A DNA stretch of 64,000 nt from Halorubrum vacuolatum (GTDB lineage: Archaea; Halobacteriota; Halobacteria; Halobacteriales; Haloferacaceae): NCBI RefSeq assembly GCF_900188065.1, contig NZ_FZNQ01000001.1, positions 62,001 through 126,000 of the forward strand, read 5' to 3'. A model generated the notes under the pieces. The model saw only the letters and a list, made by a program, of their open reading frames with translations. It ran no database searches and was not told where the DNA came from. Shown piece by piece: positions 16,145-55,507 of this stretch (position 1 is its first letter; each line of letters opens with the position of its first letter). Made by a program: the position numbers and the translations under genes.

Positions 16145-16207
16145 TACGACTCACTCCGGCCGCCCGCGACTAAAAGGGTAGTCGTTCGCGCTTGCACTGT
16201 TCACATG

Positions 16208-16284
16208 GTGGGCGCGGGACGAACGCTCTCGTGGGCGCGGGACGAACGCTCTCGTGGGCGCGGGACGAACGCTCTCGTGGGCGC
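16208..16284. repeat. 23-bp tandem repeat, 3.4 copies
   Basis: Perfect units at 16208-16230, 16231-16253 and 16254-16276 (core GGGCGCGGGACGAACGCTCT), followed by a partial fourth copy. The array lies in the non-coding stretch between the gatE promoter and tRNA-Leu. The GACGAACG core is shared with the 24-bp array at 42399-42480. No spacers. Confidence 0.95.
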
Positions 16285-16388
16285 TGAGCGGCCGCTCGAA
16301 GCGTTGTGGTTTCGAAGGATTGTGCGTGGGTGCTGTCGTAGAGACAACACCGTGCATCGGTTGTGGGCTCCGTGGAGAGCCGTTGCGA

Positions 16389-35401: not shown

Positions 35402-36385
35402 ATGGATCCAGATCGCTCCCACGACCACGTCCTCCCCGGAAGCGACGAGGAACTGTCCACGCCGGACGTCCGCGGCTACGACTTCCGCGGGAAGTTCGAC
35501 TTCGGGGAGTTCCTCGAATCGTACGCGACGACCGGCTTTCAGGCGACCCAGCTCGCGGAGGCCATCGACATCGCCGAACGGATGCAGGAGGCCGACGCCA
35601 CCGTCTACTTAACGTTCACCTCGAACATCATCTCCTCGGGGCTGCGCGAGGTCGTCGCCTACCTCGTCGAGGAGGGGTACGTCGACGTGATCATCACGAC
35701 GTCGGGATCGATCACCGAGGACGTGATCAAGACGGCCAAGCCGTTCAAGATGGGCAACTGGAACGCCGACGAGGCCGAACTCCGCGAGCGGGGGATCAAC
35801 CGGCTCGGTAACCTCTACGTCCCCTCCGATCGGTACGTCTGGTTGGAGGAGTACCTCTACGACTTCTTCGACGACTTCTTCGCCGAGGAGAAGATCCGTA
35901 CGCCGACCGCGTTCTCCCGCGAACTCGGCGAGACGCTCGATGACGAGCAGTCGGTGTTGAAACAGGCAGCAGACAACGACGTGCCCGTCTACTGTCCGGC
36001 GCTCACCGACGCCGAGGTCGGCAACTTCCTCTACTACTACCGGCAGGGACAGGACACCGAGGTCGGCATCGAGATCCTCGACGACTACGACGCACTCATC
36101 GAAGAGGGATTCGGCGCGGACACGACGGGGCTCATCGCCGTCGGCGGTGGCATCCCGAAACACCACGCCATCATGACGAACCTCTTCCGCGGCGGCGCGG
36201 ACTACGTCGTCTACATCTCCACGGGGATGGAGGGGGACGGCTCGCTCTCGGGAGCCCCGCCCAACGAGGCCGTCTCGTGGGGGAAGATCAAGGACGGGCG
36301 ATCGAACTACACCCAGATCGAGGCGGAGGCGACGCTCGTCTTCCCGCTGCTCGTCGCGGGCGCGTTCTGTCCGTCCGCGGAATAA
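35402..36385 (+). CDS. dys: Deoxyhypusine synthase
   Basis: 327 aa. It transfers the aminobutyl group of a polyamine to the aIF5A lysine, first step of hypusine formation. The catalytic Lys295 lies in NEAVSWGKIK. Also present are LTFTSNIISSGLREVVAYL, TTSGSITEDVIK, VGGGIPKHH and STGMEGDGSLSGA. The ATG at 35402 gives the family length; the open frame continues upstream over the MBL gene but with a basic, unlikely composition. Confidence 0.97.
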   Translation: MDPDRSHDHVLPGSDEELSTPDVRGYDFRGKFDFGEFLESYATTGFQATQLAEAIDIAERMQEADATVYLTFTSNIISSGLREVVAYLVEEGYVDVIITTSGSITEDVIKTAKPFKMGNWNADEAELRERGINRLGNLYVPSDRYVWLEEYLYDFFDDFFAEEKIRTPTAFSRELGETLDDEQSVLKQAADNDVPVYCPALTDAEVGNFLYYYRQGQDTEVGIEILDDYDALIEEGFGADTTGLIAVGGGIPKHHAIMTNLFRGGADYVVYISTGMEGDGSLSGAPPNEAVSWGKIKDGRSNYTQIEAEATLVFPLLVAGAFCPSAE

Positions 36386-36570
36386 CGGGTACACGACCCG
36401 AATCCGTATCGGTGGATCCGTTGAAATCCCCGGTCGGTGGGCGGTTTTGGCTGGGGGGTGTGATCAATACAGTGGACGCAGCGAACGATCTCGAACTCGA
36501 TCGGTCGCTAATATATCCCACTGACCGGATGACGAAGCAATATATAAATGACCGCTGGCGGTCGGCGCGC

Positions 36571-36680
36571 CCCGGTGAGCGCCCGGAGGGCGCGAAACCG
36601 AGCGCGAGGGAGGCACGGCGGGCAGCGAGCGATTTCCGCTCGCCGCCCGCCTGCCGAGGCTGGGGAGGCGTGAGGCTGCG
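36571..36680 (+). ncRNA. Candidate GC-rich structured RNA
   Basis: A strong TATA box (aatatataaatg, 36539-36550) predicts a start near 36571. The predicted transcript folds as CGGT/ACCG closing a GCGCCC-GGA-GGGCGC hairpin (36573-36600), then an 18-bp hairpin at 36612-36655 with arms GGCGGGC and GCGAGCG, loop ATTTC, one mismatch and one bulged C. No similarity to SRP RNA or RNase P RNA signature sequences was found. Transcription is inferred from promoter and structure only. Confidence 0.35.
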
Positions 36681-36782
36681 GTGCGGGTGTGGATGCGGTG
36701 CGAATGAGGTGCGAGTGCGGTGCGAAGGCAGTGCGAGTGTGGTGCGAGTGCGGTGCGAATGCGGTGCGAGTGCGGTGCGAAG
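36678..36782. repeat. 11-bp degenerate tandem repeat, 9 copies
   Basis: Nine copies of GCGGTGCGARK (R = A/G; K = G/T; some first bases vary) run from 36678 to 36782, with a 6-bp interruption (gtggat) after the first. The period equals about one helical turn. It follows the hairpin cluster directly. Confidence 0.9.
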
Positions 36783-37073
36783 GCGACAGTCGATCCGCGC
36801 TCCCCGCTCGGTACTCCGCCGAACGCCCCGGATCACCGCCACGATTTATAAACAGTCGCACGGCCCTTCATGATCGCTTATAACCGATCCGAGCAACCAA
36901 CCGATCACTTTGGACCCCTCACCGACCGACCCTTACAAATAAAGATCCGTCCGAAGAGGAGGAGTTCAACGGAGCCGTATCGGCCTGTGCGAACCGGGAC
37001 ACCGTATATAAAGAGACGATCCACCCGGGACCGGATCGAACCGCCTATGCGACATCCACGCCCATGCAGATCC

Positions 37074-37559
37074 ATGCTCGAAGTCGGCACGGATGCCCCC
37101 ACGTTCACGCTGCAAAATCAGGACAACGACCCGGTCTCCGTGCCGGACCCGGACGCCGCCTACACCGTCGTCTACTTTTACCCACGGGCGGACACGCCCG
37201 GCTGTACGACGGAGGCCTGCGGCTTCCGTGACGAATGGGACGCCTTCACGAACGCGGACGTGACCGTCGTCGGGGTGAGCGACGATCCCGTGAGCGATCT
37301 CTCCCCGTTCGCCGCCGAATACGACCTGCCGTTCGACCTGCTGTCGGACCCGGATGGTGCGGTCGCAAGCGACTACGACTCCTACGGCGAAAAGCGGATG
37401 TTCGGGAACGTCTTCGACGGCGTCTTCAGGAACACCTACGTCCTCGATTCGGACGGCACCGTCGTCCTCGCGTACGAGGGCGTCTCACCCGAGGGGCACG
37501 CGGAGACGATCCTCGCGGATCTCGCGTCGCGTGTCGGACACGGTGCATCGGGTGACTGA
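37074..37559 (+). CDS. bcp: Peroxiredoxin, BCP/PrxQ type
   Basis: 161 aa thiol peroxidase that reduces peroxides. Peroxidatic Cys44 and resolving Cys49 sit in TPGCTTEACGF, the PrxQ spacing of five. It has VYFYPRADTPGC and a C-terminal RNTYVLDSDGTVVLAYEGVSPEGH. TATA gtatataaag near 37004-37013 predicts a start site near 37035, so translation begins at ATG 37074 (family start MLEVGTDAPTF) or the in-frame ATG 37047. The open frame extends to 36870 but that part is basic and non-coding in character. Confidence 0.95.
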   Translation: MLEVGTDAPTFTLQNQDNDPVSVPDPDAAYTVVYFYPRADTPGCTTEACGFRDEWDAFTNADVTVVGVSDDPVSDLSPFAAEYDLPFDLLSDPDGAVASDYDSYGEKRMFGNVFDGVFRNTYVLDSDGTVVLAYEGVSPEGHAETILADLASRVGHGASGD

Positions 37560-54802: not shown

Positions 54803-54917
54803 GCGTCGGTATCATCCGTCTCCGGATGCCGATCTATTTATAAAGTGGTACGGGAGGAAATCGCATCCAAGCGACCGAATCAGAACCCTTAACCGTTCCA
54901 CCGGATTTCGATCAGGT

Positions 54918-54992
54918 AGCGGGATGGGATAGCCAGGAGATTCCGCCGGGCTCATAACCCGGAGATCGGTAGTTCAAATCTACCTCCCGCTA
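54918..54992 (+). tRNA. Initiator tRNA-Met (anticodon CAU)
   Basis: 75 nt. The acceptor stem AGCGGGA/TCCCGCT with an A1-U72 pair is diagnostic of the initiator. The anticodon stem CCGGG/CCCGG with three consecutive G-C pairs closes loop CTCATAA. The T arm is GGTAGTTCAAATCTACC. Discriminator A, no encoded CCA, no intron. A cccttaacc element near 54890 is a plausible promoter. A T5 run follows directly. Confidence 0.96.
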
Positions 54993-55000
54993 CTTTTTAA
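54993..55000 (+). terminator. T-rich terminator of tRNA-Met
   Basis: ctttttaa directly behind the tRNA 3' end, matching the oligo-T termination signal used by archaeal RNA polymerase. Confidence 0.6.
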
Positions 55001-55047
55001 CCCACTTACAGCCCGCAAGGAATCCCGACGCTTCACCGTGGCGTGAG

Positions 55048-55326
55048 TCACCGATACGGATACCGACCCGTTTCACCGCACTCCAGACAGCGGACGACGA
55101 CGTGTCCCGGCTGGAGGCGAACCCGGCTCGTCGATCCCGGTCGAAGATAGACGTCACAGCCGTCGCAGGTCTTGCGTTCGAACTCACGCGGAACACCACA
55201 GCGGTTGCGTTCGGAGATACGCCGCGCGAGCCTGATATACTCGCGAGCCCGGTCGGGCTCCTCGTCGACGACGGCCTCGCGGGCGAGCCCGAGGAGCCGA
55301 TCGATCCGTTCCCGCGGGATACCCAT
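55048..55326 (-). CDS. rnp4: Ribonuclease P protein component 4 (Rpp21)
   Basis: 92 aa, the usual size. It is a protein subunit of archaeal RNase P that trims tRNA 5' ends. The N-terminal two-helix region (ERIDRLLGLAREAVVDEEPDRAREYIRLARRIS) precedes a zinc ribbon with Cys54/Cys57 (TCDGCD) and Cys80/Cys83 (RCLECG). It lies beside the initiator tRNA gene, on the opposite strand. Confidence 0.96.
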   Translation of the reverse strand: MGIPRERIDRLLGLAREAVVDEEPDRAREYIRLARRISERNRCGVPREFERKTCDGCDVYLRPGSTSRVRLQPGHVVVRCLECGETGRYPYR

Positions 55327-55507
55327 ACCTCATCGGGCGAGACGCCGAATGAAAGGCGTTGCTATCGGGGTCGAAATGCAGGACGGGGTGCGAGACCTGG
55401 ACGGGTGAAGCGCCCGGGACGTGATCGGATGAAGCGGCCGCCTGGACGACGCGTCTCCGGCCAAGGAGGGGGCAAGCGTTTTCACCCCACCCCTGATACA
55501 GCCTCAC

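Follow-up and report, generated by a model that had tools for sequence, protein, structure and literature searches.

A BIME-like interspersed repeat of Halorubrum with exchangeable hairpins and a promoter-like TATA signal

Short repeats that carry their own promoter and give a structured RNA are familiar from eukaryotes as SINEs. REP repeats, as characterized in the relevant part of PMC3733652, measure 20-40 bp and bear a GTAG or CGTC tag. The Haloquadratum MITEs, PATEs, and small mobile repeats have, in the section of PMC3119063 that describes them, terminal repeats, near-terminal palindromes, or kinship with IS605. The intergenic repeats of halovirus HF2 are described in the corresponding passages of PMC8707807 as promoters with a TATA that begins at -26, and reporter and primer-extension experiments proved them; since these are true promoters, TATA-bearing haloarchaeal repeats can be promoters.

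The element analysed here, located between two genes of Halorubrum vacuolatum, resembles BIMEs in its behaviour: like REP/BIME sequences it (i) exists in many intergenic copies, (ii) has alternative complementary stems, and (iii) is built as a mosaic. Unlike them, it has no GTAG or CGTC tag next to a palindrome (the flanks of its second hairpin, H2, differ, reading GCGAGGGAG/C and CGAGG in aligned copies), and its unit of ~260 nt has different conserved blocks and also contains exchangeable hairpins and a TATA box, so that two REP-defining features, tag and size, are lacking. With the Haloquadratum MITEs and PATEs it shares the state of a transposase-free haloarchaeal repeat, but it may differ from them in the features by which they are defined; window positions 36100-37100 held no clear end-joining pair of terminal inverted repeats, the ends of the element being only imprecisely mapped. 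Like the HF2 repeats it is a haloarchaeal repeat carrying a TATA, whereas those are 29-58 bp viral promoters for genes, in whose description the relevant passages mention no hairpin cassettes (PMC8707807), and the element has no match in phage records. Unlike SINEs, it shows no sign of an RNA intermediate, one tested site fits vertical inheritance, and its TATA precedes the presumed start.

In Rfam 15, no family matched the element at the gathering threshold, and the whole window gave only a tRNA; a permissive search returned weak, unrelated miRNA and Ms1 matches. Among titles and abstract openings, in a search that most subscription journals lie outside, we found no published description, and the family seems to have been named by nobody. 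A feature in an Hrr. passage of PMC6011602 may, as far as that passage goes, be a copy of the element.

The window, that is, the whole stretch of 64,000 nucleotides that was analysed, contains the deoxyhypusine synthase gene dys (35402-36385; Pfam DS, E 2.2e-101) and a peroxiredoxin gene (37074-37559; Pfam AhpC-TSA, E 6.3e-33), both on the plus strand, as are all parts of the element. The gap between them has the 688 bp (36386-37073) that an earlier note on this DNA had given. That note called it the longest non-coding stretch; by our home-made gene caller one gap is longer, at 705 bp (54803-55507), but it contains a tRNA at 54918-54992. The parts in the dys-peroxiredoxin gap follow in the order TATA box, block 1, H1, CGCGAGGGAG, H2, CGAGGCTGGGGAGGCGTGAGG, and 11-bp array. 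The left arm, in its own-genome form, spans 36464-36557 by its by-eye likeness to the arms of other own-genome copies such as L004, L008, and L014, the outer limit being an estimate, and holds TATA motifs at 36510-36516 and 36540-36549; the latter belongs to the clear TATA box that had been pointed out, aatatataaatg at 36539-36550. Conserved block 1, GCGGTCGGCGCG (36558-36569), was defined by the column composition of 193 copies. It runs into hairpin H1 (36566-36606), recognized as an inverted repeat and from folds of 181 distinct H1 sequences, whose stem varies but whose GA/GA(A) internal loop is conserved. Block 2, CGCGAGGGAG (36603-36612; alignment of 56 copies), links H1 to H2 (36612-36655), a hypervariable, exchangeable cassette with an 18-pair stem that was delimited by folding, pair counts, and exchange between copies. 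Block 3, CGAGGCTGGGGAGGCGTGAGGCTGCGGT (36655-36683), with an exact core match at 36655-36668, was drawn from the alignment of copies and passes into a tandem array of GGTGCGAGTGC-like 11-bp units (36675-36795), a repeat family with 8 in-register copies. The right tail (36845-36884) has two more TATA motifs in its sequence (36845-36852 and 36878-36884) and is probably homologous to the tails of copies elsewhere that bear a further hairpin, B.

RNA folding reproduced, beyond chance, the consecutive GC hairpins and the 18-pair stem (4+7+7) at 36612-36655 that the earlier note had reported. Folded as plus-strand RNA, 36558-36680 reached -81.5 kcal/mol (z -3.9), and 0 of 200 shuffles were equally stable; the opposite strand as RNA (-70.9, z -2.6) beat 197 of 200 shuffles, and the segment folded as DNA (z -3.4) beat 199 of 200. 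The spacing between TATA and hairpins, previously called normal, is only roughly so: transcription would start around 36567-36571, level with the 5' arm of H1 or just within it, where 36567 is the sum from a TATA at -26 as in PMC8707807 and 36571 follows from the usual TATA-to-start distance.

The suggestion that similar GC-rich elements occur in other haloarchaeal intergenic regions proved correct, with thousands of copies across the genus. A blastn search with 36530-36800 gave 43 own-genome matches (E<=1), matches in all 34 of the same-genus relatives searched, and weak ones in 5 of 24 other-family genomes. A two-block pattern (blocks 2 and 3, 18-48 nt apart) found 26 copies in the own genome and 109 and 89 in two relatives with one- and two-contig assemblies; the window copy, one of these 26 exact matches to the pattern, is not a locus-specific RNA gene. 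Across the class, the pattern occurred in 63 of 391 genomes, including 46 of 46 same-genus genomes, in which 3137 copies were counted (median 58.5, range 10-172), while the control, the same pattern reversed, gave 0 matches throughout the 391. A scan of named genomes yielded at least 118 stretches; most of the 80 matches listed are from Halorubrum, and the list also holds two Haloparvum matches, a single Halorussus match, and two that belong to an uncultured archaeon. In other genera the copies retain blocks 1-3, but their stems are altogether different. Two same-family genomes (L244 and L245) have copies with identical H2 and the same gene neighbours, which, reading the translations by eye, we take to be a dihydropteroate synthase-like gene on the 5' side of the element and an RNase P component 3-like gene on its 3' side. 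At window positions 16190-16310, a short tandem repeat of GGGCGCGGGACGAACGCTCTCGT-like units adjoins a tRNA-like sequence, with the element absent there; the same position in three relatives (L047, L085, and L122) is occupied by the element.

For the anatomy of the family we gathered 209 copies, which include orthologues from related species. In 130 of them, block 3 is followed on its 3' side by a spacer and the long hairpin B (GACTCAAAGGGGCAG ... CTGGGGCTTTGG), and then by the tail, which in B-bearing copies often contains TTTATAA; of 127 such copies, 48% have a TATA at 24-41 nt in the tail. Hairpin B was found in 0 of 27 own-genome copies, where the 11-bp array may stand in the place that B has elsewhere, as in the window copy. 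The order block 1 to block 3, B, and tail is invariant in 80 named loci, and the distance from block 1 to the tail has a median of 258.5 nt (120 copies with B). By eye, many H1, H2, and B stems have tandem G.A mismatches on the plus strand. In the plain alignment A1, a spurious second L037 match was left out and L015 was shortened by its first 10 bases. Consensus folding of A1 helped little, as H2 cannot be aligned by column and H1 has two registers; pairs were therefore counted per copy against arm-swapped controls. A coding reading was rejected because the lengths of H2 are spread over all three residues modulo 3 (72, 59, and 78 of 209), and an open frame through H2 is thus not kept between copies. 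Some H1 hairpins (in L110, L169, L172, and L220) hold inserted small palindromes, GAGGGACC...GGTCCCTC and CCGGCGGC...GCCGCCGG, that look like further small repeats, and one H2 (G009:C1:29948-30011) consists mostly of long C and G runs, perhaps through an assembly fault.

Orthologous copies with flanks ~80-94% alike keep their place and orientation, and their H1, H2, and B are mostly different. All 17 types of recurrent identical H2 sequence occur at unrelated sites, and among 83 pairs of copies with identical H2 the same H1 was found in 0. These sequence comparisons demonstrate that H1 and H2 are exchanged separately between copies. The outer H2 positions are Watson-Crick paired in 72.6%, versus 48.8% with swapped arms; since exchange of whole hairpins as cassettes is expected to give compensatory change even without selection on RNA, such changes alone do not prove RNA, and as a refuting test named in the earlier note they do not discriminate.

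A strict TATA hexamer lies within 34 nt upstream of block 1 in 84 of 192 copies, mostly at 16-27 nt, whereas other upstream windows have TATA mostly at 0.5-2%, with 10% in the -60 to -42 window; this enrichment across copies upholds the view that the TATA is part of the feature. The rate of left TATA is similar in the four gene contexts (18/42, 33/68, 14/31, and 14/34). Service to the downstream gene was considered and rejected, as neither the left nor the tail rate is higher where that gene could be driven. By these counts the TATA belongs to the element, not to the neighbouring genes, giving it a promoter-like signal to which TBP and TFB would bind. The predicted start, at 26.5 nt from the TATA centre, lies a median of 9.5 nt inside the H1 5' arm. 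This position, and the absence of the strict hexamer in 108 of the 192 copies, count against a promoter-RNA reading.

One convergent site (query L197) was compared in 35 of 45 genomes, with 10 unclassified ones left out; G031 was counted as occupied on block 1 and the extent of the match, although the core pattern was not found in it, and a spurious pattern match in G019 was disregarded. The element is present in 20 of the 35, all inside one well-supported clade of 28 genomes, and the 7 genomes outside that clade are all empty. In 15 of the 20 occupied sites, the upstream gene ends in TTA TAA, forming the TATA, TTA making up 1.35% of Leu codons; among the remaining five, one has CTATAAA and four are without TATA. 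At the 7 clean empty sites, the gene ends in CTG or CTC plus TAA, TAG, or TGA, with TATA in 0 of 7, and three further empty genomes are likewise without it. Five genomes without the element, in which the right flank is not adjacent, retain TTATAA (L266, L270, L271, L274, and L275, corresponding to G024, G005, G002, G018, and G030); all are inside the element-carrying clade, and their TTATAA are possibly scars of lost copies. These five, and the four occupied copies without TATA, weigh against the reading favoured below. The pattern at this site fits one ancestral gain followed by losses, some of which would have left TATA scars. A tree test of TATA versus occupancy had only 2 independent pairs on starred branches, so that the association is inseparable from descent, and the spacers of occupied and empty sites were too divergent for a target-duplication comparison.

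With 19 of 209 copies at locus edges left out, 0 of the 190 copies for which the home-made caller found both neighbours overlap a gene. Their neighbours are arranged convergently in 74, in tandem in 44 and 36, and divergently in 36. In the 80 named loci, convergent gaps make up 27 of 75 with the element versus 80 of 470 without it (odds ratio 2.7, p 4e-4; p values, here and below, are optimistic because the copies are not independent).

On balance, and with some reserve, we favour a BIME-like interspersed repeat that is vertically kept and probably transcribed into a structured RNA, making it a candidate RNA element. From the sequences come the family, the order of its parts, its intergenic placing, the TATA as one of those parts, prolonged presence at one site, and the independent exchange of hairpins. 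Conserved blocks would frame exchangeable H1 and H2, plus B in most other species; TBP and TFB would bind the TATA, transcription would start near the base of H1, and the resulting RNA would fold on itself. The element would act like a bacterial BIME, mostly as a parasitic or structural repeat at gene ends, in convergent gaps above all, with gene conversion between the conserved blocks renewing its hairpins. A bolder version, which we advance only tentatively and would not bet on, sees promoter-carrying RNA genes that form a family across the whole genome; their organisation would be SINE-like, yet they would be inherited in place, with a constant frame whose hairpins are shuffled as cassettes among dozens to more than 100 loci. 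In this version the last codons of the host gene could be changed, from CTG to TTA, and so provide the TATA. Rather unlikely, in our judgement, is a purely DNA-level repeat with no dedicated RNA, in which cruciform or single-stranded hairpins would act in replication, supercoiling, or recombination and the TATA would be AT-rich melting sites. E+ is lower than E-, meaning better folding of the plus strand, in 161 of 181 H1, 114 of 119 B, and 116 of 169 H2, and G.U pairs exceed A.C pairs in H1 (102:64, p 0.004) and in B's outer stem (44:11; p 0.002 compared with swapped arms), both in favour of RNA; a linked pair at the base of B is A-T in 95, G-C in 27, and otherwise in 8 of 130 copies. H2, in keeping with a DNA-level repeat, shows no wobble asymmetry (37:31; in the outer 7 positions, 21 G.T versus 28 A.C), and in B taken as a whole wobbles are more numerous in the minus-strand fold (261/4984) than in the plus-strand fold (113/4899), against RNA. 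Wobble pairs are also scarce, at 1.7-3.4% of pairs versus 9% in 28 tRNAs; the stretches from core to B have no T-run terminator (TTTT in 3%), the strict TATA is missing in more than half of the copies, and whole-hairpin exchange explains the compensatory changes. The wobble counts lean towards RNA in two of three stems, and the narrow distance range of the TATA, together with the fact that at one site a gene's final codons encode it, also speaks against a DNA-only repeat.

A non-autonomous transposon, MITE- or PATE-like and served by a transposase in trans, would account for the interspersed distribution, the 10-172 copies per genome of the genus, and the differing presence between species at two sites, but we consider it improbable: the one tested site fits a single gain and then losses, no version with a transposase-size insert occurs in the 80 named loci, and traces on mobile replicons are few. 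The window copy as query had no matches in plasmid or phage records, a B-bearing copy matched 6 plasmid records, only 1 of them from Halorubrum, and 0 phage records, and viral contigs held 0 exact matches to the element. We give hardly any credence to the idea that the element is a leader or regulator acting in cis on the peroxiredoxin gene downstream, or a small RNA confined to this locus; the element does lie upstream of that gene in the same orientation, preceded by a promoter-like signal, yet copies occur in all four gene arrangements, the convergent one being commonest, and in 29 fetched peroxiredoxin relatives no copy was found upstream of the gene, those nearby all being downstream.

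We know of no such structured-RNA repertoire family in archaea. If the favoured repeat is transcribed, the set of related structured RNAs made by every Halorubrum cell would be large, with many members distinguished by their own H2. Even if untranscribed, it would be an abundant element whose covariation arises by cassette exchange, and as such would call for caution wherever RNA discovery is based on compensatory changes; its copies would also be ready markers of gene conversion between loci in archaea.
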